From assembly GCF_011320225.1 (NCBI RefSeq), contig NZ_JAAOEN010000004.1:186001-250000 (forward strand): a DNA stretch of 64,000 nucleotides. The letters run 5' to 3'. Origin of the DNA: Phytoactinopolyspora limicola (GTDB lineage Bacteria > Actinomycetota > Actinomycetes > Jiangellales > Jiangellaceae). Numbering within the stretch: position 1 is the first letter of the stretch; each line of letters opens with the position of its first letter. Below, piece after piece: positions 7,701 through 58,376 of this stretch. The notes under the pieces are model-generated. The model saw only the letters and a list, made by a program, of their open reading frames with translations, did not search any database and had not been told where the DNA came from. Position numbers and translations under genes: made by a program.

Positions 7701-10700
7701 ATGAGTGACGCGACCACCCGGGATTCCTCGCCCGGCACGGCCCAGGGCCCATCCGGCGCCCGATCCACCTCTGAACCCGGCCAGTATCGTGCCGTCCCGG
7801 CGCAGGTGGAGCTTGCCGCCATGGAACGCGACATCCTCACCTTCTGGGCGGACAACGAGGTCTTCGGCCGGGCCATGAAGGCCAGCGAGGGCCGCCCGAC
7901 GTGGATGTTCTACGAGGGCCCGCCCACCGCCAACGGCACGCCGGGCACCCACCACATCGAGGCCCGGGTGTTCAAGGACGTCTTCCCCCGTTACCGCACC
8001 ATGAAGGGGTACCACGTCCCGCGCAAGGCCGGCTGGGACTGCCACGGCCTGCCGGTGGAGATCGCGGTGGAGAAAGAGCTGGGGCTGTCATCGAAGTACG
8101 ACATCGAGACCTACGGGGTGGCGGAGTTCAACGCCAAATGCCGGGAATCGGTCCTGCGTCACGTGGACGCGTTCGAGGAGATGACCGAGCGGATGGGCTA
8201 CTGGGTGGACACCACCCGGCCGTATCGCACCATGGATCCGTCGTACGTACAGAGCGTGTGGTGGTCGCTGAAACAGATCTTCGACGCGGGGCTGTTGGTG
8301 GAAGACCACCGCGTCGCGCCGTACTGCCCGCGCTGCGGCACGGGCCTCTCGTCGCATGAGCTCGCCCAGGGGTACGAGACCGTCGCCGATCCGTCGGTCT
8401 ACGTGCGGCTCCCACTCACCTCCGGCCCATTGGCCGGCACGGCCGCCCTGTTGGTTTGGACAACGACGCCCTGGACGCTGGTGTCCAACACCGCAACGGC
8501 CGTCCATCCGGACGTCACCTACGTCGCCGCCACCGACGGCTCGGAGACACTCGTCGTCGCCGAACCGCTAACCGAGGCGGTACTCGGCGAAGGATGGACG
8601 GTCACCGCACGGTACCGAGGCTCGGACATGGAACGGTGGGCCTACGCCCGACCGTTCGAGCTGGTCGAACTGGCTGCTCCGGATTCCAACGACGACGGCG
8701 GCCCGGTCGCCAACTACGTCGTCGTCGACACCTACGTAACCACCGAGGACGGCACCGGCCTCGTCCATCAGGCCCCGGCGTTCGGCGCCGACGACCTCCG
8801 CGTATGCAAACGGTACGGGATGCCCGTCGTCAACCCGATCGAACCCGACGGGACCTTCCGAGCCGATGTCCCCCTCGTGGGCGGCCAGTTCTTCAAACAC
8901 GCCGACACCGCGCTCACCCAGGATCTCGACGAACGCGGGCTGCTCTACCGGCACACCACCTACGAACACGAATACCCGCACTGCTGGCGCTGCCACACGC
9001 CGTTGCTCTACTACGCCCAGCCGTCGTGGTACATCCGCACCACCCAGTTCCAGGACGCGTTGCTGCGCGAGAACGAGAAGACCAACTGGTACCCGGAGAC
9101 GATCAAATGGGGCCGGTACGGAGACTGGTTGCGCGGCAACGTCGACTGGTCGCTGTCCCGCAACCGGTTCTGGGGAACACCACTGCCGATCTGGCGCAAC
9201 GACGAAGATCCGTCGCACCTCGTCTGCGTGGAGTCGCTGGCCGAGCTGTCCAGGCTGGCCGGGCGAGACCTGTCCGAACTCGACCCACACCGCCCGTACG
9301 TCGACGACGTCACCTTCACGATGCCCGGCGTACCAGGTACGTTCCGGCGCGAGCCGCACGTCATCGACGCCTGGTACGACTCCGGCTCGATGCCCTTCGC
9401 CCAGTGGGGCTATCCGCACGAGCCCGGCAGCGAGCAGGTATTCAACGACTCGTACCCGGCACAGTTCATCTGCGAGGCGATTGACCAGACCCGCGGCTGG
9501 TTCTACACCCTGATGGCGGTTGGTACCGCCGTATTCGACCGATCGTCGTACGAGAACGTGCTCTGCCTCGGCCACATCGTCGCCGAGGACGGCCGCAAGA
9601 TGTCCAAACACCTGGGCAACATCCTGGAGCCGATCCCGCTGATGGACACCCACGGCGCCGACGCCGTGCGCTGGTTCATGGCCGCCAGCGGCTCGCCCTG
9701 GCAGTCCCGTGGCATCGGTTCGGGCATACTCGGCGAGATCGTCCGCAAGGTGCTGCTGACCTACTGGAACACGGCCTCCTTCCTGTCCCTGTACGGGCGG
9801 ACGGCCTCGTGGTCACCGGCCCACGGCGCCCCACCGGTGGGCGAGCGACCGGTGCTGGACCGGTGGGCGCTCAGCGAGCTGAACCAACTCGTCGCCGACG
9901 TCGACGCCGCCATGGAGAACTTCGACACCCAGCGCGCCGGCAGCCTGCTAGCCCGGTTCGTCGACGACCTCTCCAACTGGTATGTCCGACGTTCCCGGCG
10001 ACGGTTCTGGGACGGCGACCCGGCCGCCCTGGCCACTCTGCATCAATGCGTCGAGACCTTAACCAGGCTGCTCGCGCCGCTGGTGCCGTTCGTCACCGAA
10101 CGGGTCTGGCAGGACCTCGTCGTCCCCGTCGACCCCGACGCACCAGAGTCGGTGCACCTGGCCAGCTGGCCGGAGGCCGACCCGGCGGTCGTCGACACCC
10201 AACTGGCCGAAGAGGTAGCCCTGACCCGGCGCCTGGTCGAGCTCGGCCGCGCCGCACGGGCGGAGTCGAAGGTGCGCACCCGGCAACCGCTCGCCCGAGC
10301 CCTGGTCGGCGCGTGGGGCTGGGACGCTCTGCGGGACGAACTGCGCGCGGAGATCGCCGACGAGTTGAACGTGGCCGAGGTCACCTCGTTGAGCGCCGCC
10401 AGTGGAGCGGGGGCTGCCGGCGATGCGGGCGATGCCGGTGACGCCCTGCTCGACGTGTCGGCCAAGGCGAACTTCCGATCCCTGGGCCGGCGGTTCGCCA
10501 AGGACACCCCCACCGTGGCGGCCGCGGTGGCAGCGGCCGACGCCGGAGCTCTCGCGGCGGCCCTGCGCTCGTCCGGTGCGGCCAGCGTCGTTGTCGACGG
10601 AATCGGCGAGGTCACACTCGGGCCGGACGACGTCGTCATCACCGAGACTCCACGTGAAGGCTGGGCGGTCGCCCGAGAGGGTGAGACGGTGGCCCTCGAC

Positions 10701-10988
10701 CTCACGTTGAGCGAGGAGCTGGTCCGGGCCGGTTTGGCCCGGGAGGTCATCCGGTTGGTCCAGGAAGCCCGTAAGACGAGTGGGTTCGACGTATCCGACC
10801 GGATCGAGTTCGCCTGGAGCGCGGCTGCTGGCGCCGAACAGCTGGCGGCCGCACTGCGTGAGCACGAACGGTTGGTATCCGACGAGGTCCTAGCGGTCGC
10901 GGTCTATGACGACGTGGCAGCGTTGGCCGGCGAGCCGGACCACACCGACGCCGACCTCGGTCTGACCTTCCGCGTCCGCCGCACCTAA
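7701..10988 (+). CDS. ileS: Isoleucyl-tRNA synthetase, IleS2 type with GTHH signature
   Basis: Cytoplasmic class I aminoacyl-tRNA synthetase charging tRNA-Ile, 1095 residues, typical of the eukaryote-like (type 2) bacterial IleRS. Visible parts: catalytic domain entry YEGPPTANG (71-79); signature motif GTHH at residues 82-85 (7944-7955) where HxGH is normal; editing domain between about 220 and 430; KMSK at 633-636; then the anticodon-binding and C-terminal regions. A small Ala/Gly/Asp repeat (AGDAGDAGDA) interrupts the C-terminal part near residue 908. ATG at 7701 follows GGAGG with 12 nt spacing, and that site is controlled by the T-box. The gene is on the plus strand while its conserved neighbours are on the minus strand. 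Confidence 0.96.
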   Translation: MSDATTRDSSPGTAQGPSGARSTSEPGQYRAVPAQVELAAMERDILTFWADNEVFGRAMKASEGRPTWMFYEGPPTANGTPGTHHIEARVFKDVFPRYRTMKGYHVPRKAGWDCHGLPVEIAVEKELGLSSKYDIETYGVAEFNAKCRESVLRHVDAFEEMTERMGYWVDTTRPYRTMDPSYVQSVWWSLKQIFDAGLLVEDHRVAPYCPRCGTGLSSHELAQGYETVADPSVYVRLPLTSGPLAGTAALLVWTTTPWTLVSNTATAVHPDVTYVAATDGSETLVVAEPLTEAVLGEGWTVTARYRGSDMERWAYARPFELVELAAPDSNDDGGPVANYVVVDTYVTTEDGTGLVHQAPAFGADDLRVCKRYGMPVVNPIEPDGTFRADVPLVGGQFFKHADTALTQDLDERGLLYRHTTYEHEYPHCWRCHTPLLYYAQPSWYIRTTQFQDALLRENEKTNWYPETIKWGRYGDWLRGNVDWSLSRNRFWGTPLPIWRNDEDPSHLVCVESLAELSRLAGRDLSELDPHRPYVDDVTFTMPGVPGTFRREPHVIDAWYDSGSMPFAQWGYPHEPGSEQVFNDSYPAQFICEAIDQTRGWFYTLMAVGTAVFDRSSYENVLCLGHIVAEDGRKMSKHLGNILEPIPLMDTHGADAVRWFMAASGSPWQSRGIGSGILGEIVRKVLLTYWNTASFLSLYGRTASWSPAHGAPPVGERPVLDRWALSELNQLVADVDAAMENFDTQRAGSLLARFVDDLSNWYVRRSRRRFWDGDPAALATLHQCVETLTRLLAPLVPFVTERVWQDLVVPVDPDAPESVHLASWPEADPAVVDTQLAEEVALTRRLVELGRAARAESKVRTRQPLARALVGAWGWDALRDELRAEIADELNVAEVTSLSAASGAGAAGDAGDAGDALLDVSAKANFRSLGRRFAKDTPTVAAAVAAADAGALAAALRSSGAASVVVDGIGEVTLGPDDVVITETPREGWAVAREGETVALDLTLSEELVRAGLAREVIRLVQEARKTSGFDVSDRIEFAWSAAAGAEQLAAALREHERLVSDEVLAVAVYDDVAALAGEPDHTDADLGLTFRVRRT

Positions 10989-11002
10989 CCCTCCCCGTCG
11001 TG

Positions 11003-11598
11003 CACCTGATCTTCGAAATGTCACCTGATCTTTTCTGCGGCGACGATCAGGTGCACGATCGGCGGCAACGGCAGACCTCGCTGCATCTGATCGCGTCCCG
11101 CTATGTGAGCGGGAAACGATCAGATGCGTGAACGGGGCTGGTCGGCGCATTGATGCATCTGATCGTGAGAGCGTCCGCTGTGCCGTCCCGTCCACCATCT
11201 GCAGACGCGCAGCGCCAGCAGCCCGGGACGGCCGGTCATCACGGTGTTGACCAGCCGACCGTCTGCGGCCCGGCGTCTGTTCCCGGACCCGGTTCGACCG
11301 CGTTCGTCGCGCCCGTCGGTCTCGACGTACGTTCCGGCGATGCCCACCCTCGGCGCCGACCGCAACAAGCTTCCTCACGGCACGCTGCCGTGTGCAGTAA
11401 ACCTCCTTGTTGCTGCCCTGGCGACCGTAAGCGTCCTTGTGCCCGGGGCGGATACCGCAGTAAGCCTCCTTGCTGTCGCCCGGACTGCGACACGCTTCGC
11501 TCCGGTGAAGAACCGTGCCGGGCGTCCCGGACTCCGCTACCGCCAGATGGCGTTAAAGCCCGAATCCGGCGCTTAACACCATCTGGCGGTAGCGGAGT
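11003..11598 (+). repeat. Modular intergenic repeat element, copy A
   Basis: Modules in order. First, paired CACCTGATC/GATCAGGTG arms at about 11003-11058. Second, GCATCTGATC/GATCAGATGC arms at about 11090-11170. Third, three 15-bp repeats reading CAGTAAACCTCCTTG or close variants at 11395-11409, 11425-11439 and 11458-11472. Fourth, a perfect 20-bp inverted repeat with arms 11531-11550 and 11579-11598. The same modules in the same order occur in reverse orientation at 17888-18349. Spacing between modules differs, so the element is longer here. No transposase or terminal duplication is visible. Confidence 0.8.
11531..11598. repeat. 20-bp perfect inverted repeat ending element copy A
   Basis: ACTCCGCTACCGCCAGATGG (11531-11550) is exactly complementary to 11579-11598. 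After one mismatch, a further 5 bp pair (GTTAA 11552-11556 with TTAAC 11573-11577). As RNA this is a very stable hairpin; it could terminate transcription from either side, but no T-run follows. Confidence 0.85.
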
Positions 11599-11764
11599 GC
11601 GCGATCCTGAACGGGGCGACGAGTTACCTGTCGCGCAGCCCGACATCTACGTCGCCGAACAGCAAAATCACCGCCAGCACCCACACCTGGGGCGACCCGA
11701 AAGCCCAGAAACCCACCGAGGCGGCGACCCGCGGAAGAGCCGACGGCCGCCTACTCCGTGACAA

Positions 11765-13009
11765 CTAGAGGTAGCCGCGGAGCTTGGCCGCGCTGGCCAC
11801 CCGTTCGACGCTGATCTGGAACGCCGCCTGCCGAGGCGTGATCTTGCCGTTCTGCTCGGCTCGGTCCTTCACCGACCGATAGGCGGCGACCATCTGCCGA
11901 CGCAGCTGCTCGTTGACTTGATCTTCGGTCCACTTGAACTCTTGAAGGTTCTGCGTCCACTCGAAGTACGAGACCGTGACGCCGCCGGCGTTCACCAGGA
12001 TGTCCGGTAAGACCTCGACGCCGCGGTCGGCCAGGATGCTGTCCGCTTCCGGAGTGACGGGGTGGTTGGCGGCCTCGAGGATCAAACTGGCACGGATCTG
12101 GTCGGCGTTGTCCGAGTTGATCACCCCGCCGAGCGCGGCCGGGACGAGCACGGTGACATCGAGCGTCAATAGTTCGTCGTTGCCGATGGTATCGGTGCCG
12201 GGTGTGCCGACGACGCTGCCGCTCTGTCGCAGGTGCTGGTCGACGGCGTCGAGGTCGAGACCGTCCGGTGCGTAGATGCCGCCCCGTACGTCGCTGACGG
12301 CAACCACGCGGAAACCTTCGGCGGCGGCCAGCCGGGCTGCCCATGAACCGACGTTTCCGTATCCTTGGATCGCGATCGTGGTGTCGGCGGCGTCCCAGCC
12401 GTGGTCAGCGGCGGCCTTGCCCAGCACGATGACCGTCCCGCGGCCAGTAGCTGCCTCTCGGCCGTAGGAACCGCCTAGTTCGACCGGCTTACCGGTAACG
12501 ATGGCCGGAGTGTGGCCGCTCTTGCGGCCGTACTCGTCCATCATCCATGCCATGGTCTGGGCACTGGTGTTCATGTCCGGCGCCATGATGTCGCGGCGCT
12601 CGCCGATGACGTAGCTGACCTGAGAGAGGTAGCGGCGGGTCATCCTCTCCACTTCGGTTTCGGAGAGCTCGGACGGGTCGACCTGCACCCCGCCTTTGGC
12701 CCCACCGAACGGGACATCGATCAATGCCGTCTTCCACGTCATCAGCGCCGCCAGTGCGCGGACCTCATCGAGGTCCGCGTCCTGGTGGAACCGGACGCCG
12801 CCTTTGTACGGGCCGCGGGCGCCGTTGTGCTGGACACGGTATCCATACACAGTGCGGACGGTGCCGTTGGCCAATCGCAGCGGCACCTGGACCCGTATCT
12901 CGCGATAGGTACCCGCCAGCAGCTCGCGGGTTGCGTCACCAAGCCCTAGTTGGTCAGCAGCGTGCTGAAAACAGTCCGTGACAGCCTGAAACGCCGAAGC
13001 CTTGGACAT
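11765..13009 (-). CDS. gdh: Glu/Leu/Phe/Val dehydrogenase (glutamate dehydrogenase type)
   Basis: 414 residues, the length of hexameric RocG/GudB-type NAD-linked glutamate dehydrogenases. The N-terminal dimerisation domain has the substrate-binding block GPYKGGVRFH and the catalytic-Lys motif FGGAKGGV. The block MAWMMDEYGRK and GKPVELGGSYGREAATGRG are family hallmarks. The Rossmann domain follows with IAIQGYGNVGSWAA. It interconverts glutamate and 2-oxoglutarate plus ammonia; a branched-chain or aromatic amino acid substrate cannot be excluded. It sits between ileS and divIVA, a position normally empty in this conserved cluster, so it looks inserted. Start at 13009 is an ATG without strong ribosome binding site. 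Confidence 0.9.
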   Translation of the reverse strand: MSKASAFQAVTDCFQHAADQLGLGDATRELLAGTYREIRVQVPLRLANGTVRTVYGYRVQHNGARGPYKGGVRFHQDADLDEVRALAALMTWKTALIDVPFGGAKGGVQVDPSELSETEVERMTRRYLSQVSYVIGERRDIMAPDMNTSAQTMAWMMDEYGRKSGHTPAIVTGKPVELGGSYGREAATGRGTVIVLGKAAADHGWDAADTTIAIQGYGNVGSWAARLAAAEGFRVVAVSDVRGGIYAPDGLDLDAVDQHLRQSGSVVGTPGTDTIGNDELLTLDVTVLVPAALGGVINSDNADQIRASLILEAANHPVTPEADSILADRGVEVLPDILVNAGGVTVSYFEWTQNLQEFKWTEDQVNEQLRRQMVAAYRSVKDRAEQNGKITPRQAAFQISVERVASAAKLRGYL

Positions 13010-16148: not shown

Positions 16149-16192
16149 CTACTTGAGGAAGTCTGGTACGCCTATTTGAGGAAGTCTGGTAC
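16149..16192. repeat. 21-bp duplication across the ftsZ stop codon
   Basis: The minus-strand bases encoding VPDFLK plus stop (16172-16192) are repeated immediately downstream (16149-16169) with one mismatch (AAATAG versus AAGTAG) and a 23-bp period. The second copy lies after the stop and in another frame, so it does not lengthen FtsZ. Confidence 0.85.
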
Positions 16193-17413
16193 GTCGAGAT
16201 CGTCGTCAGCGGGAGGTACGACGCGGCGCTGTTCGCGAGGGCGGGGAGGGGCCGGCACCGGATCGGTTCGATCGGGACGCTCGCGGCCCCCTTCAGACCC
16301 GGCAGCCGGCGCCGCGCCGTTGGTGCTGGCATCGGATCCCGAGCCGGTGGTGTCGGAGTCGCCCGACGCGGCTTCGGAACCATCACCTGACGCCCCGCTA
16401 CCACCACCCTGACCACCAGATTGAGCGTCGCTGCGGCGTACCGTGCCGAGCTCACGTCGTGGTGGTTGACCACCGTCGAACCCCGCGGCGATGACGGTGA
16501 CTCGAACTTCGTCACCCAGGGCGTCGTCGATCACCGCACCGAAGATGATGTTGGCTTCGTCGTGTGCTGCCTGTGCGACGAGGTTGGCCGACTCGTTGAT
16601 CTCGAACAGACCCAGATCGGAACCGCCGGAGACGGAGAGCAAGACCCCGTGGGCGCCGTCGATCGACGCCTCGAGCAGCGGCGACGAGATAGCCATCTCG
16701 GCGGCGGCGACCGCGCGGTCCTCGCCGCGGGCGGATCCGATGCCCATCAGCGCGGATCCGGCGTTGCTCATGACCGACTTCACATCCGCGAAGTCAAGGT
16801 TGATCAAGCCTGGCGTGGTGATGAGGTCGGTGATTCCCTGCACACCGGAGAGCAGCACTTGGTCCGCGCTCTTGAACGCATCAAGCACACTGACCTGGCG
16901 GTCGCTGATGGACAGCAGGCGGTCGTTGGGGATGACGATGAGGGTGTCGACCTCTTCACGCAAGGCCTCGATGCCGGCCTCCGCCTGCATCGCGCGGCGG
17001 CGGCCCTCAAACATGAAAGGCCTGGTCACCACACCGATGGTCAGCGCACCAAGCGAACGTGCGATACGGGCGACGACCGGCGCCCCGCCGGTGCCGGTAC
17101 CGCCACCCTCGCCGGCGGTGACGAACACCATGTCGGCGCCCTTGAGGACCTCTTCGATCTCTTCGGAGTGGTCTTCAGCCGCCTTGCGTCCGACGTCGGG
17201 GTTGGCTCCCGCGCCGAGGCCCCGGGTCAGCTCACGGCCGACATCGAGCTTGACGTCGGCATCGCTCATCAGCAACGCCTGCGCGTCGGTGTTGACCGCG
17301 ATGAACTCGACGCCCTTGAGGCCGACCTCGATCATGCGGTTGACCGCGTTGACGCCGCCGCCACCGATGCCGACGACCTTGATCACCGCTAGGTAGTTCT
17401 GCGGAGCAGTCAC
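16172..17413 (-). CDS. ftsZ: Cell division GTPase FtsZ
   Basis: Tubulin homologue that forms the division ring, 413 residues. GTP-binding start [15 protein letters not shown] (13-27), tubulin signature [10 protein letters not shown], the synergy-loop segment around [11 protein letters not shown], then a variable Ser/Gly/Arg-rich linker (about 325-400), and the C-terminal peptide [10 protein letters not shown] that binds SepF and FtsW in actinobacteria. GTG start at 17413, with AGAGG about 11 nt upstream. Unlike most relatives it is not next to ftsQ: 946 bp of repeat-bearing DNA separate them, so ftsZ must use its own promoter. Confidence 0.97.
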
Positions 17414-17486: not shown

Positions 17487-17887
17487 AGCGATGATTAGAC
17501 GCTAAGCGGGGCAGACACCCGTACGGCGCAGACACGCCGATAGATCTCCTGATCGACATTTTTCGCAACAGCCCACGACGCGGGCTCGAGAGGCGAATCC
17601 AGCCGTAGCCCACCCCGGCCAGACGGCGCCCGCACGCGGCGATGCCATGTGGACTGGCAGCCCCGGCCCCCGCTGACGAGCTCCATAAATCGGACGAACC
17701 TCCCACGATTACCTCACCTCAGCGTGCCAGGCACAACGCCGCGACGTGCACAGCGGTCGGCCCGTTGCCATTCTTCTGCGGTGGGCGAGCTGCCTCACCA
17801 CCCGTTCAGGGGTGTGCGACGACGGCGAACGCGGCGCTGTGGCGGTGTATGAGCCGGATGATCGCCAGATCCCGGTACGGCATAGCG

Positions 17888-17957
17888 CACTTCGCTACCG
17901 CCAGATGGCGTTAACACCCGATTCCCGCCCTCAACCCCATCTGGCGGTAGCGAAGTG
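17888..17957. repeat. 21-bp perfect inverted repeat of element copy B
   Basis: CACTTCGCTACCGCCAGATGG occupies 17888-17908 and its exact complement 17937-17957. The inner 17 bases of the arm match the arm of copy A at 11531 except for short edge differences. Confidence 0.85.
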
Positions 17958-18349
17958 CCGGGGCACGCCGGCGCGGCCCGCACCGCAAGGGAAACGTGTC
18001 GCCGTCCAGGCCACAACAAGGAGGTTTACTGCGGCCCCCGCCCCGGGCACAAGGAGGCTTACTGTCACCAGGGCAACAACAAGGAGGCTTACTGCACACG
18101 GCAGCGTGCCGCAAGGAAGCTTGTGGCGGTCAGCTGAGGACGGGTGCCGCCGGACTGGGCGTCCAGCCCGACGCCCGAGTTGGCGAAGGCGGCAGCCGCT
18201 CTGACGATCAGATGCATAACCCGCCGGCTCGCCCATATCCTGAGACGAGGTCGCATGCGCCAACGGGCCGTTGAGCAGGGTAAACGCCATCCGCCGTGCA
18301 CCTGATCGTCGCCACAAGAACGATCAGGTGACAAAACGGAGATCAGGTG
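17888..18349 (-). repeat. Modular intergenic repeat element, copy B (inverted)
   Basis: Reverse-oriented relative of the element at 11003-11598. Reading the minus strand: CACCTGATC arms (18300-18349), a GCATCTGATC motif (near 18210), the repeat array, and the terminal 21-bp inverted repeat. On the plus strand the array is CAAGGAGGTTTACTG at 18017-18031, CAAGGAGGCTTACTG at 18050-18064 and 18080-18094, and a degenerate fourth at 18112-18126, spaced 30-33 bp. From 17958 to 18130 the DNA aligns with copy A over most of its length. Confidence 0.8.
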
Positions 18350-18359
18350 CGCGCGGGGG

Positions 18360-19100
18360 TTACGGGACGATGGCGGGTTTGTCCGGTGCGGAGACGTCAT
18401 ACGCCGACGGCGGCTCCTCCACCGTGTCCATCAACGCCAGCAACGCCGCCGCTTTGTCGTCTCCACGTTCCGACGTACCCCACCGCACCACGATGCCGTC
18501 GTCCAGGATCAGGCGGACGTCCGCCGCCGATTCGACCTCGATCCGATCGACGAGTTCGTCGACGTTGGCCGGCAGGCCGGTCAGGACCTCCACGCCCATA
18601 ACCCGGGCCAGGGTCGCCGACTCACCGGTGGGGGCGCTCATCACCGGCACGCCGTCGGGCGGGTCGGACGAGCGAGCGAACAGCACACCTGTCTCGTCCA
18701 CGCTCCACCATCGGCTGCCGTCGGGAACGGCCGCCAGCGGCACCCGAGGCGCTACGTCGATGGTGAGTGTCCGGGGCCATGAACGGCGGATCTTTACGTC
18801 GCCGACCTCCGGGAGTTCACGCACTCTAGATGCGATCTCACCAGCGTCGACCCGGGCTAGCGGCACCCCGATCGGGACTTCGGCGATGTCCGCGACGTCG
18901 GCGGCGAGGTCGTTGTCGACACCGACGACCCGGACGTCCTGGACGGCCAGCGCGGATGACCAGCCAACCAGCCACGCCGCGACGCCCAGCCCAGCCACGG
19001 CTACCGCCGCGACGGCGATGTGCAGCACTTTGCGGGTTCGCCGACGCCGGACACGTGCCGTGAAGCGTTGCGCCCCGGCTGATTGTGTCCCGCCGCTCAC
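18360..19100 (-). CDS. ftsQ: Cell division protein FtsQ
   Basis: 246 residues. A basic cytoplasmic tail (RVRRRRTRK), one transmembrane helix (about 27-50, LHIAVAAVAVAGLGVAAWLVG), then an extracellular POTRA domain starting VQDVRVVGVDNDLAADV and a beta domain with RSWPRTLTIDVAPRVPLA. FtsQ is the bitopic scaffold that links FtsL and FtsB-like proteins in the divisome. It is the last gene of the mraZ-ftsQ run and starts 12 bp after murC. Confidence 0.92.
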   Translation of the reverse strand: MSGGTQSAGAQRFTARVRRRRTRKVLHIAVAAVAVAGLGVAAWLVGWSSALAVQDVRVVGVDNDLAADVADIAEVPIGVPLARVDAGEIASRVRELPEVGDVKIRRSWPRTLTIDVAPRVPLAAVPDGSRWWSVDETGVLFARSSDPPDGVPVMSAPTGESATLARVMGVEVLTGLPANVDELVDRIEVESAADVRLILDDGIVVRWGTSERGDDKAAALLALMDTVEEPPSAYDVSAPDKPAIVP

Positions 19101-32463: not shown

Positions 32464-32672
32464 GGTGGGCTCCTCGGGTTCTGCGTGCGGCCCGGGCCGG
32501 TGGTGTGCCGCCCCGCGCCGGATGGTCCGGCTCCTGGTGTTCGTGCGACCAGGTCCCCGCCCGCTCGATCTCGTCATTGCCGCCTGGCACCGGGGAAGGT
32601 GTGTCAGGGGACGTAGAGCGGGCCGGAGACCTCGCCGCACGACGCGGGCGGGGCCATAGGTGGACGGGGCCG

Positions 32673-50488: not shown

Positions 50489-52330
50489 ATGAGTGATAAC
50501 GCCGTTCCGCTGATCCCCCGCGAGGTCCTGTTCGGCAACCCCGAACGGGTCACGCCGAGCCTGTCCCCCGACGGCACCAGGATCGGGTTCGTCGCACCCG
50601 ATGATGGTGTACTCAACGTCTGGGTCGGCCCGGCCGATGATCCAGCGGCGGCGCGCCCGGTCACCTTCGATCGTGGCCGCGGCATCCGCGGGTACGACTT
50701 CTGCCACGACGACAAAACACTCGTCTATCTGCAGGACACCGATGGCGACGAGGACTGGCGGCTGTACGCACTCGACCTCGACTCCGGTGAGGCGCAGTTG
50801 CTCACCCCCCAGTCCGGGGTCACGGCCGGGGTGCTGGCCCACAATCGTTGGCACCCGACCACCATGCTGATCGGACTCAACGCCGACGACCCCGCACTTC
50901 ATGACATCTACCGGCTCGACCTCACCACTCGCGAGATCGAGAAGGTCGAGACCAACCCCGGCTACGCGGGCTGGATGGTCGATGTCGACCTGAACGTCCG
51001 GGGTGGTATGGCGATGACCGAGGACGGCGGCGCCGTTGTGTACCTGCGCAACCCGCGGACCGGCGTCGACGAGCCGTGGATGGAGATAGGTGCCGACGAT
51101 GTCGCCGGCACCGGTGTGCTCAGCTTCAGCCGCGACAACACCTCCGTGTTGGTGCTGTCGAGTGTTGATGCCAACGCCTCCCGGTTGTTGCGCGTCGACC
51201 TCAGCACCGGCGCGGAGACGGTCCTGGCCGAAGACCCCGAGTACGACGTCGGCGGCGTCACGCTGCACCCGGAAACACTGGAGCCGCAGGGTGTCACCTT
51301 CATCAAAGATCACAAGGTGTGGGTCCACCTCGACCCCGAGTTCGGGGCCGAGATCGACTACCTGCGCGCTCAGCTACACGGCGAGGTGGGGATCTCCCGG
51401 CCCGTGCGCGACGACCGCCGGTGGATGGTGCACGACATGCTCTCCGACGGCCCGGTCCGCTACTACGTCTTCGATCGCGACACCCGCGAGCTCACCTTCC
51501 TCTTCTCGCACCGGCCGGAGCTCGAGGACTATCAGCTCACCGAGATGGAGCCGTTCAGCTATACCGCCCGCGACGGCCTCACCATCCACGGCTACCTGAG
51601 CTTTCCGCCGGGTGTCGATCGGGAGAACCTGCCGGCCGTGCTGAACGTCCACGGCGGCCCGTGGGCCCGTGACGTCTGGGGATTCGATCCCGAGGCTCAG
51701 TGGTTCGCCAACCGTGGATACCTCTGTGTTCAGATCAACTTCCGCGGCTCCACGGGTTATGGCAAGGCGTTCGGCAACGCCGGCAACAAACAGTGGTCGA
51801 AGGCGATGCACACCGACCTGCTCGACGCTGTCGACCACCTCGCCGGCCTCGGCTGGATCGACCGCGACCGGGTCGGCATCTACGGCGCGTCGTACGGCGG
51901 ATACGCCGCGCTGGTCGGGGCGGCCTTCACCCCCGACGTGTTCCGCTGCGCCGTCGACCTCGTCGGTCCATCCAACCTGCTCACGTTGCTCACCTCGATT
52001 CCGGAGTACTGGAAACCGCAGATCGCGTTTATGTACTCCCGGGTCGGCAACCCGGAGACGGAGAAAGACTTCCTGTGGGCGGCGTCTCCGTTGTCGCGGG
52101 TCGACGACATCCGTATCCCCATCCTCGTCGCCCAGGGGAAGAACGATCCACGGGTGAAAGAAGCCGAGGCGGAGCAGATCGTCAACGCCTTGATCAAGAA
52201 GGGTATCGACCACCAGTACCTGCTGTTCGAGGATGAGGGCCACGGTCTGGCCCGCCCCGAGAACCGGGAGCGTTTCTACGCCGCGGCCGAGGCGTTCCTG
52301 GCGCAGCATCTCGGCGGTCGCGCCGAATAA
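50489..52330 (+). CDS. S9-family prolyl oligopeptidase/acylaminoacyl peptidase
   Basis: 613 residues. An N-terminal beta-propeller (about 1-330, repeated Asp-box-like strands such as DTDGDEDWRLYALDLDSGE) guards a C-terminal alpha/beta-hydrolase domain. The nucleophile is Ser468 in GASYGGYAAL; acid AQGKNDPRV; His in EDEGHGLARPENR. No signal peptide, so it is cytoplasmic and probably trims peptides. ATG at 50489, no strong ribosome binding site. Monocistronic. Confidence 0.9.
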   Translation: MSDNAVPLIPREVLFGNPERVTPSLSPDGTRIGFVAPDDGVLNVWVGPADDPAAARPVTFDRGRGIRGYDFCHDDKTLVYLQDTDGDEDWRLYALDLDSGEAQLLTPQSGVTAGVLAHNRWHPTTMLIGLNADDPALHDIYRLDLTTREIEKVETNPGYAGWMVDVDLNVRGGMAMTEDGGAVVYLRNPRTGVDEPWMEIGADDVAGTGVLSFSRDNTSVLVLSSVDANASRLLRVDLSTGAETVLAEDPEYDVGGVTLHPETLEPQGVTFIKDHKVWVHLDPEFGAEIDYLRAQLHGEVGISRPVRDDRRWMVHDMLSDGPVRYYVFDRDTRELTFLFSHRPELEDYQLTEMEPFSYTARDGLTIHGYLSFPPGVDRENLPAVLNVHGGPWARDVWGFDPEAQWFANRGYLCVQINFRGSTGYGKAFGNAGNKQWSKAMHTDLLDAVDHLAGLGWIDRDRVGIYGASYGGYAALVGAAFTPDVFRCAVDLVGPSNLLTLLTSIPEYWKPQIAFMYSRVGNPETEKDFLWAASPLSRVDDIRIPILVAQGKNDPRVKEAEAEQIVNALIKKGIDHQYLLFEDEGHGLARPENRERFYAAAEAFLAQHLGGRAE

Positions 52331-52337
52331 TCTAATC

Positions 52338-52377
52338 GATCACCGCGCCTGGCACCGCCGTGCCAGGCGCGGTGATC
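52338..52377. terminator. Bidirectional terminator between S9 peptidase and hflX
   Basis: A 17-bp perfect stem (52338-52354 with 52361-52377, GATCACCGCGCCTGGCA) and a 6-nt loop, between two convergent stop codons. The TAAT run on one side and GATC ends fit a two-way terminator. Confidence 0.85.
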
Positions 52378-56539: not shown

Positions 56540-56752
56540 ATGGGCTTCGACAAGATGAAGGACCAGCTCAGCGACGCGATGTCCAAGAACTCGGACAAAC
56601 TCGGCGACGGCATCGACAAAGCCGCCGACTTCGTCGACGACAAAACCGGTGGCAAGCACACCGACAAGATCGATTCCGCGGCTGACAAAGCGAAGGGCCT
56701 GCTCGGCCAGGACAACGACGACCCGGACCAGCCCACCCGTAACACCCGGTGA
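56540..56752 (+). CDS. Small MT0933/CsbD-like antitoxin-family protein
   Basis: 70 residues, hydrophilic and helical, beginning MGFDKMKDQLSDAMSKNSDK and containing FVDDKTGGKHTDKID; the DKTGGKxTDKID core is typical of the actinobacterial MT0933-like (Rv0909) antitoxin family. In M. tuberculosis Rv0909 sits beside a toxin gene, but no such partner is near here, so an antitoxin role is unsafe. ATG with GAGG upstream (CGAGGTGAGG). The stop codon lies inside a repeat. Confidence 0.8.
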   Translation: MGFDKMKDQLSDAMSKNSDKLGDGIDKAADFVDDKTGGKHTDKIDSAADKAKGLLGQDNDDPDQPTRNTR

Positions 56753-56873
56753 TCGTTGCCGTTATTGTGTCGTCACCTTCCGGTGATCGAACCCAGAATC
56801 GGGTCGCTATAGCGACACAATAACGGCAACGATCACCGGTGGGTAGCGACGCAATAACGGCAACGATCACCGG
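56746..56873. repeat. 27-bp repeat in three copies between convergent genes
   Basis: Copy 1 (56746-56772, plus orientation) is the exact inverse complement of copy 2 (56813-56839); copy 3 (56847-56873) repeats copy 2 with one mismatch. Core word: AACGGCAACGATCACCGG. Copies 1 and 2 can form a 27-bp hairpin. Copy 1 contains the stop codon of the small gene; copy 3 ends 22 bp before the ahcY stop, so the structure may terminate both. Confidence 0.9.
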
Positions 56874-56894
56874 GTCGCATGCGGGTGAGGGATC

Positions 56895-58376
56895 TCAGTA
56901 GCGGTAGTGGTCCGGCTTGTACGGGCCGTCCACATCGACACCGATGTACTCGGCCTGGTCCTTGCGGAGCGTGGTGAGCTTGCCGCCGAGCGCCTCGAGG
57001 TGGATCCGGGCAACCTTCTCGTCCAGGTGCTTCGGCAACAGGTACACCTGGTCGGTGCCGTATTCACCCTGCTTCGTGAACAGTTCGATCTGCGCGATCG
57101 TCTGGTCGGAGAAGGAGTTGGACATGACGAACGACGGGTGCCCGGTGGCGTTGCCCAAGTTCAGCAGCCGGCCCTCGGAGAGCACGATGATCGAGTGGCC
57201 GTCGGGGAAGGTCCACTCGTCGACCTGCGGCTTGATGGTGACCCGCTTGACGCCGGGATAACGCTCGAGCTCCGCGATCTGGATCTCGTTGTCGAAGTGG
57301 CCGATGTTGCCGACGATGGCCTGGTGCTTCATCTTCTCCATGTGCTCGATGGTGATGACGTCTTTGTTGCCGGTGGTCGTGATGATGATGTCGGCCTGGT
57401 CGAGCACGTCGTCGAGAACAGCCACCTGGTAGCCATCCATCGCCGCCTGCAGCGCGCAGATCGGGTCGATCTCGGTGACGATCACCCGGGCGCCCTGGCC
57501 ACGCAGCGACTCCGCGCTGCCCTTGCCGACGTCGCCGTAGCCGCAGATCACCGCGGTCTTGCCACCGATGAGCACGTCGGTGGCCCGGTTGATGCCGTCC
57601 ACCAGCGAGTGCCGGCAGCCGTACTTGTTGTCGAACTTCGACTTGGTGACGGCGTCGTTGACGTTGATGGCCGGGAAGAGCAACTCCCCCGCCTCAGCCA
57701 GCTGGTAGAGGCGGTGCACACCGGTGGTGGTCTCCTCGGTGACACCCTTGATGCCCGAGGCGATGGTGGTCCACTTCGAGCCGTCCGCGGCCAGCGAGGC
57801 ACGCAGCAGCTCGAGAAAGACCTGCCACTCCTCCGGGTCGTTCTCGCCAGCGGCGGGCACCGCGCCGGCCTTCTCGAACTCCACACCCTTGTGCACCAGC
57901 AGCGTCGCGTCGCCACCGTCGTCGAGGATCATGTTCGGGCCGTCGCCGCCCGGCCAGGTCAGCATCTGCTCCGTGCACCACCAGTACTCGGGCAGCGACT
58001 CACCCTTCCACGCGTACACCGGGGTGCCGGCAGGTGCGTCCTTCGTGCCGTTCGCACCGACAACAACAGCCGCGGCCGCGTGGTCCTGGGTGGAGAAGAT
58101 GTTGCAGCTGGCCCAGCGGACCTCGGCGCCGAGCTCCACCAGCGTCTCGATCAGCACGGCGGTCTGGATGGTCATGTGCAGCGAACCGGACACCCGGGCA
58201 CCCTTGAGCGGCGCCTTACCCGAGTACTCCTTGCGCAGCGCCATCAGCCCAGGCATCTCGTGTTCGGCCAGTCGGATCTCGTTGCGGCCGAACTCGGCAA
58301 GCGACAGATCGGCGACGGCGAAGTCGACACCGTTGATCGTCTGCTTCGGTACGGACGGACTGAACGTGGCGGTCAT
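56895..58376 (-). CDS. ahcY: S-adenosylhomocysteine hydrolase
   Basis: NAD-dependent enzyme splitting SAH into adenosine and homocysteine, 493 residues, the long form with the insert found in mycobacteria. NAD-binding [43 protein letters not shown], and the C-terminal [16 protein letters not shown] and [11 protein letters not shown] with AAAGGAG upstream. Cotranscription with metH (152 bp upstream) is plausible: MetH uses its homocysteine product. Confidence 0.96.

Follow-up and report, generated by a model that had tools for sequence, protein, structure and literature searches.

In Phytoactinopolyspora limicola, an array of 15-bp units located in the ftsQ-ftsZ gap is one module of a composite intergenic element rather than a stand-alone binding site. 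The array lies at 18017-18126 (+) of the 64,000-nt stretch that was analyzed (the window, C34:186001-250000, where C with a number denotes a contig), which belongs to a 6.59-Mb genome in 40 contigs. The composite consists of a hairpin (hairpin A), the CAAGGAGG array and GATCAGRTG palindromes; it is present at two places in the window, and each of its modules recurs at dozens of genome sites or more. We consider it probable that the composite is a non-autonomous, mobile palindromic repeat with the array as one of its hairpin modules, and that each family in the composite has or had a cognate AbiEi-DUF559 gene. The best reading is an arrangement similar to that of repetitive extragenic palindromic sequences (REPs) and REP-associated tyrosine transposases (RAYTs), in which the partner is an AbiEi-DUF559 nuclease rather than a tyrosine transposase.

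A preliminary description of the array reported three exact units and a degenerate one with a period of 30-33 bp, and we measured steps of 33, 30 and 32. The exact unit, CAAGGAGG(C/T)TTACTG, occurs as CAAGGAGGTTTACTG at 18017-18031, as CAAGGAGGCTTACTG at 18050-18064 and a third time at 18080-18094 (all +), where it forms the hairpin CTTACTGTCACCAGGGCAACAACAAG with the end of the second unit. The degenerate fourth unit, CAAGGAAGCTTGTGG (18112-18126, +, four mismatches), is also found in other copies. The inverted array described at 11395-11472 was recovered on the - strand, with two exact units and one carrying two mismatches (units at 11395, 11425 and 11458) and, by eye, a degenerate fourth at 11363-11377. 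The window contains eight unit matches at ≤ 3 mismatches; 100 dinucleotide shuffles gave a mean of 1.06 (standard deviation 0.94) and never as many as eight. Loss of the units in other copies and random spacing elsewhere had been named as grounds for dismissing the array, and we found neither: the units are conserved, and among 97 unit-to-unit steps in the genome (units at ≤ 3 mismatches, arrays of non-identical sequence only) 41 were of 30 nt, 28 of 32 nt and 24 of 33 nt, with the other four at 62-79 nt. Furthermore, the 30-nt step is a hairpin. In 21 distinct modules an average of 9.8 of 12 positions paired; the search pattern itself dictates 3 of these pairs, and the figure without them is 6.8 of 9. 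At one locus (L069) a palindrome of the array unit has 16-bp perfect arms (by eye).

These properties bear on two other explanations of the array. The preliminary description proposed a helically phased protein-binding array, with a role in chromosome organization or segregation. The regular 30-33 nt steps agree with this, but units set 30, 32 and 33 bp apart would not all stay on exactly the same face of the helix; a DNA-binding partner is plausible, namely the C38 gene product described below, but there was no sign of a phased site linked to a replication or segregation region. Arrays are spread over 20 or more of the 40 contigs, mostly within the mobile-looking composite and in many cases in gaps of convergent genes (13 of 23); placement with respect to the origin was not mapped. 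The embedding of the array in a duplicated composite, the hairpin character of the 30-nt step and a motif frequency at control level in 59 relatives (see below) also argue against a phased array, which we regard as very unlikely. The other explanation is a structured regulatory RNA such as a GGA-loop sponge, in which the CAAGGAGG units could sit in loops (by eye). However, the array RNA folded no better than shuffles (z of +1.27, -1.04 and -0.63), and a window scan gave no Rfam match over the arrays at the gathering score, making this the least probable of the explanations weighed here and one that we hardly credit. Two further candidates were ruled out: a protein-coding repeat (KE(A/V)YC in one frame by eye), because steps of 32 shift the reading frame, and a clustered regularly interspaced short palindromic repeat (CRISPR) array, the spacers being alike between arrays.

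In the window, copy 2 of the composite (17809-18359, +) occupies the ftsQ-side part of the gap between ftsQ (18360-19100, -) and ftsZ (16172-17413, -), and its right end abuts the ftsQ stop codon. It contains hairpin A (17887-17958; 26-nt arms, 96% complementary, 20-nt loop), the array, a GATC-family half palindrome, TGCATCTGATC (18206-18216, -), and GATC-family terminal hairpins (18297-18351) that end in the terminal inverted repeat (TIR) GCACCTGATCTCCGTTTT (18333-18350, -). Copy 1 (10993-11616, -) lies between ileS (7701-10988, +) and a glutamate dehydrogenase gene (11765-13009, -), and contains hairpin A (11525-11604; 32-nt arms, 91%), the inverted array and GATC-family palindromes within 11001-11164 (11001-11055, 11082-11128 and 11154-11164). 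The two copies are connected by four inverted matches with their order kept, including 147 nt at 87%, 91 nt at 77% and 65 nt at 83%.

The modules are dispersed through the genome. At ≤ 2 mismatches the array unit had 166 genome matches compared to 9 for the reversed control pattern. BLAST searches of the genome gave at least 42 matches for the array and at least 80 two-strand matches at 40 or more places for hairpin A, both lower bounds with the best 40 candidates scored in each case. An array was found within 320 nt at 33 of 40 hairpin A places, while hairpin A was not nearby at 10 of 45 listed array places. In addition, distant blocks were nearly identical: copy 2 and a block on C39 around 109382-109527 share 94% identity over 582 columns, and two C1 places 262 kb apart share 98% over 513 columns. 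The right ends of the near-identical blocks have GGAGATCAGGTG in common, which led to the TIR GCACCTGATCTCCGTTTT, with 95 forward and 98 reverse genome matches (193) and none for the reversed control. Twenty TIR elements of 145-1468 bp were fetched, all picked as inward-facing pairs; four of them (L223-L226) were picked for containing array and hairpin A, and the other 16 contain neither. The median arm identity over 60 nt was 0.91 within an element versus 0.77 between elements, and the 10 nt outside the two ends were complementary at 7.75 of 10 pairs, compared to a mean of 6.34 and a maximum of 7.50 for ends from other loci (5000 permutations). Because both the likeness of the arms and the outer pairing exceed those between loci, these results suggest that TIR elements sit inside locus-specific palindromes, and they may have been inserted into pre-existing hairpins. 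The elements also favor gene ends, the stop codon being the nearest gene end for 10 of the 11 TIR elements with readable context; in this and the gap analysis of the arrays below, genes were called by codon composition only, and loci that gave no context (4 of 15 TIR elements, 6 of 29 array loci) were dropped.

A separate observation concerns the GATC-family palindromes at contig ends. Eight contig ends of the genome (the starts of C2, C6, C7, C13, C21, C28 and C36 and the end of C10; loci L122, L126, L127, L133, L141, L148, L156 and L169) have a common insertion-sequence-like end, TGTCAGCGATGTCCCGAAACAGGACA. An insertion-sequence-like element seems to insert beside palindromes, because a GATC-family palindrome begins approximately 20 nt further in at all seven printed contig ends. 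A comparable case, ISPpu9 inserted in Pseudomonas REPs, is reported in PMC8450116.

The repeats are nearly restricted to this species. The motif, searched as a 14-mer at ≤ 1 mismatch, had 121 matches in the P. limicola genome and 9 in 59 relatives (in 7 genomes), where the reversed control had 18; four congeners gave a single match. Similarly, TGCAYCTGATCG occurred 315 times in P. limicola versus 0-14 times in each of 20 relatives. The exact two-unit array pattern had no match in a wider genome contig collection, from which the P. limicola genome was possibly left out. Furthermore, the composite block is absent from the ftsQ-ftsZ gap of the congener G001, which is ~300 nt long compared to ~945 nt in the window; the global alignment of this gap misplaces the G001 ftsQ end and served for block absence only, beside other comparisons. 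Elsewhere in G001, relatives of hairpin A (75-79% similar) were observed at single places (C1:1071400-1072000, C8:39400-40000 and C9:47900-48500; L116-L118) with no array by eye, and a lone array-like relic at C1:640500-641200 (L120) forms a longer quasi-palindrome, CAACAAGGAAGCTTGTGG...CAGTAAGCCTCCTTGTTG.

Homologous genes of P. limicola are flanked by copies of the same repeats. The C38 gene (C38:250507-251217) lies between two CAAGGAGG arrays, and its flanks are 90% alike over 71 nt. The TIR-bounded element C7:70128-71595 holds a 310-aa open reading frame (ORF), the C7 gene, inside GATC TIRs; homologs of its protein number eight in the same genome and were found in 33 of 40 genomes, P. limicola included, at E ≤ 1e-5. 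On C8, hairpin A occurs twice with 1.2 kb between the copies; from this we predicted a ninth gene, which was then found as a 362-aa ORF between them (the C8 gene). Thus all three modules of the window composite recur on both sides of a gene of their own: the array at C38, hairpin A at C8 and the GATC palindromes at C7. Other palindromes border the C12 and C10 genes and are dispersed in the genome, with at least 82 and at least 80 two-strand matches, respectively, each at approximately 40 places (best 40 of 134 and best 40 of 124), and the C24 and C1 genes have matching repeats on both sides.

To compare flanks, 60 nuclease loci were reduced to 44 distinct genes, the rest being duplicates, and set against 161 control genes from 10 genomes and the window. 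The left and right 400-nt flanks had a repeat in common in 30 of 44 nuclease genes versus 6 of 161 controls (p = 1.5e-19). A palindrome score ≥ 13 within the 300-nt flank was reached by 32 of 44 versus 18 of 161, and by 24 of 34 versus 11 of 102 when the intergenic flank was at least 120 nt. The palindrome scores of the C7 (10, 10), C38 (7, 8) and C1 (12, 10) genes fell short of the cut-off, and all three were positive in the flank comparison. L264 was scored negative since its 3' end runs into one palindrome, though the palindrome pair is present. Additionally, a GATCAG-type motif occurred at least three times in all eight genes whose products are ≥ 57% identical to the C7 protein and at most once in the other 36, so this motif tracks the protein clade cleanly; a ATGATCAT-type motif, found at least twice in 10 of 11 C12/C10-type genes and also twice in five C7-clade genes, is less exclusive. 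The likeness of the flanks may come partly from shared descent.

The domain architecture of the partner proteins was assigned from profiles and folds, the domains of the C7 protein being read through its paralogs and the fold of a homolog. AbiEi_4 (PF13338) matched above cut-off in five of the nine paralogs and below it in C38, with none in C1, C7 and C8 (best E of 6e-13); DUF559 (PF04480) matched above cut-off in one paralog and below it in five (best E of 2e-4). Together these matches, several of them sub-threshold, cover seven of nine paralogs. In the C38 product, the AbiEi-type winged-helix match is thus sub-threshold and is above threshold in paralogs. All nine paralogs, C8 included, share the invariant residues E201, D232 and E243. 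In the AlphaFold model of the P. alkaliphila homolog of C7 (mean confidence score pLDDT of 85.6, pTM of 0.75), residues 11-201 align with the AbiEi antitoxin 6y8q (Z of 11.3, root-mean-square deviation of 4.5, 184 aligned; Foldseek E of 4e-6), and residues 204-308 with the endonuclease-like 3hrl (Z of 7.3, root-mean-square deviation of 3.2, 79 aligned). A profile search with the paralogs found both 3hrl (E of 1e-4), which is independent support for this fold, and 6y8q (E of 0.02). The partner is thus predicted, from profiles and a structural model, to be an AbiEi-like DNA-binding domain fused to a DUF559/Vsr-like, PD-(D/E)XK-like nuclease domain with putative catalytic activity.

The nuclease is likely the mobilizer of its palindrome. 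The AbiEi part would recognize the cognate palindrome as a duplex, a cruciform or a single-strand hairpin, and the nuclease part would nick or cut it, allowing copies to move to other loci, chiefly into hairpins of the intergenic DNA at the 3' ends of genes. On this view, three nested systems would make up the window composite, in which the C38 gene belongs to the array, the C8 gene to hairpin A and the C7 gene to the GATC palindromes. More tentatively, though we find it quite plausible, AbiEi-DUF559 genes with their own palindromes may constitute an unrecognized class of bacterial mobile element, widespread in Actinomycetes and with clade-specific motifs, whose enzymes mobilize solo palindromes that insert at the apices of existing intergenic hairpins and thereby nest into composites.

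The main rival to mobilization by the nuclease takes the palindromes as primary, spread by recombination or an unrelated transposase and possibly retained as terminators; the nuclease genes would be homing-type passengers that insert into palindromes they recognize. Such passengers would give the same flanking pattern. Moreover, 13 of 23 arrays with readable context lay in convergent gaps, a class that made up 11 of 85 gaps in the background (p = 4e-5), and none of the 23 lay in a divergent gap (12 of 85 in the background), as terminators would. However, the C7 homologs of other species and genera still have the GATC motif next to the gene though it is unamplified in the relatives counted, and because of this the palindrome seems to travel with the gene; we judge the passenger explanation unlikely. 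A toxin-antitoxin or defense unit is less likely still. The palindromes would then be operators or antidote RNAs, and the dispersed copies decoys or relics; the AbiEi antitoxin fold of the N-terminal part fits this explanation, and AbiEi binds inverted repeats at its own promoter. Against it, matching repeats stand on both sides of the gene and not at the promoter alone, and repeats are present at dozens of places without any known partner gene.

Several observations weigh against a cognate, mobilizing nuclease for each repeat. With respect to the flanks, 14 of 44 nuclease genes were below threshold for matching flanks, the C3 and C5 paralogs are bordered by a strong palindrome on a single side, and the nuclease genes were drawn from more genomes than the 10 that supplied the controls. 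Two loci, L211 (the C7 gene) and L281 (the C8 gene), had been located via repeats and so lack independence; when they are removed, the count of genes with matching flanks is 28 of 42. The link between the array and the C38 gene comes from one genome, and the palindrome score of the array hairpin equals background (7 and 8 in the C38 flanks versus a control median of 8 for the better flank), so that C38 is tied to the array by its matching arrays and not by palindrome strength. No nuclease gene was found within 1.5 kb of the single array of G001. Since hairpin A and the array are co-located at 33 of 40 places, one machinery might move both. With respect to the proteins, the C8 protein has weak likeness to the C7 protein (blastp E of 4e-4), neither has a Pfam match, and C7 has no NCBIfam match either. 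The Foldseek E for 3hrl is only 1.9, and a Z near 7 alone is weak because MenT1 nucleotidyltransferases score a Z of 7.8 over model residues 64-202. Finally, no target-site duplication was seen, by eye, as a direct repeat at the TIR elements; a plasmid search gave no match for the C12 protein and one distant match, in Rhodococcus ruber, for the C38 protein, and a phage search with the C38 protein gave none.

Among known systems, REPs, bacterial interspersed mosaic elements (BIMEs) and REPtrons (a REP with a RAYT, TnpA_REP) are similar in their high-copy short intergenic palindromes, in a dedicated enzyme gene that lies between copies of its palindrome and in amplification limited to few genomes. 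Unlike the AbiEi-DUF559 nuclease, RAYT is a Y1 tyrosine transposase, and the Y1 transposase domain (Y1_Tnp, PF01797) was found in none of 11 genomes, including P. limicola, in a search that was positive in 5 of 14 control genomes. RAYT is the dedicated enzyme of one large class of palindromic repeats in bacteria, the GTAG REPs; CGTC-tagged REPs, likewise palindromic, are reported in PMC3733652 to lack a dedicated transposase, and that text contains no word starting with 'actinobacter'. Miniature inverted-repeat transposable elements (MITEs) are also non-autonomous, intergenic, bounded by TIRs and present in many copies, whereas the elements described here are nested full hairpins with no recognized target-site duplication; the relative of MITEs carries a DDE transposase and the relative here a nuclease, no search aimed at DDE relatives having been made. 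The AbiE type IV toxin-antitoxin systems share the AbiEi fold of the N-terminal ~190 residues but not the fusion to a nuclease-like domain or the matching repeats on both sides of the gene. DUF559/Vsr-like endonucleases (3hrl, the MTES_1575 restriction endonuclease) resemble the C-terminal domain by profile and fold, whereas here this domain is coupled to an AbiEi module and palindromes. In the literature searched, including the available parts of PMC3733652 and PMC3710099, no DUF559 or AbiEi-nuclease genes paired with palindromes and no role of DUF559 in repeat spread were found; preprints lay outside the search, as did many subscription papers, and this is weak evidence of absence.

Three other features of the window were observed. 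A long palindrome, CCGGTGATCGTTGCCGTTATTGTGTCG, at 56744-56875 (27-nt arms, 100%), with an overlapping related pair, lies beside an ORF (56895-58376) and possibly represents a further palindrome family. A perfect, terminator-like hairpin (52338-52377; 18-nt arms, 4-nt loop) lies just past the ORF at 50489-52330. The sole Rfam match in the window, barely above the gathering score, is an mraW RNA (RF01746) at 32531-32648 (-).

The pairing of repeats with a nuclease suggests an unrecognized way for bacterial repeat DNA to spread. A nuclease family encoded between matching palindromes in many actinomycetes provides a concrete candidate enzyme, and a possible role for DUF559, a domain of unknown function. 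Mobilization by such nucleases would explain much of the intergenic repeat DNA of P. limicola, including the insertion between the division genes ftsQ and ftsZ.
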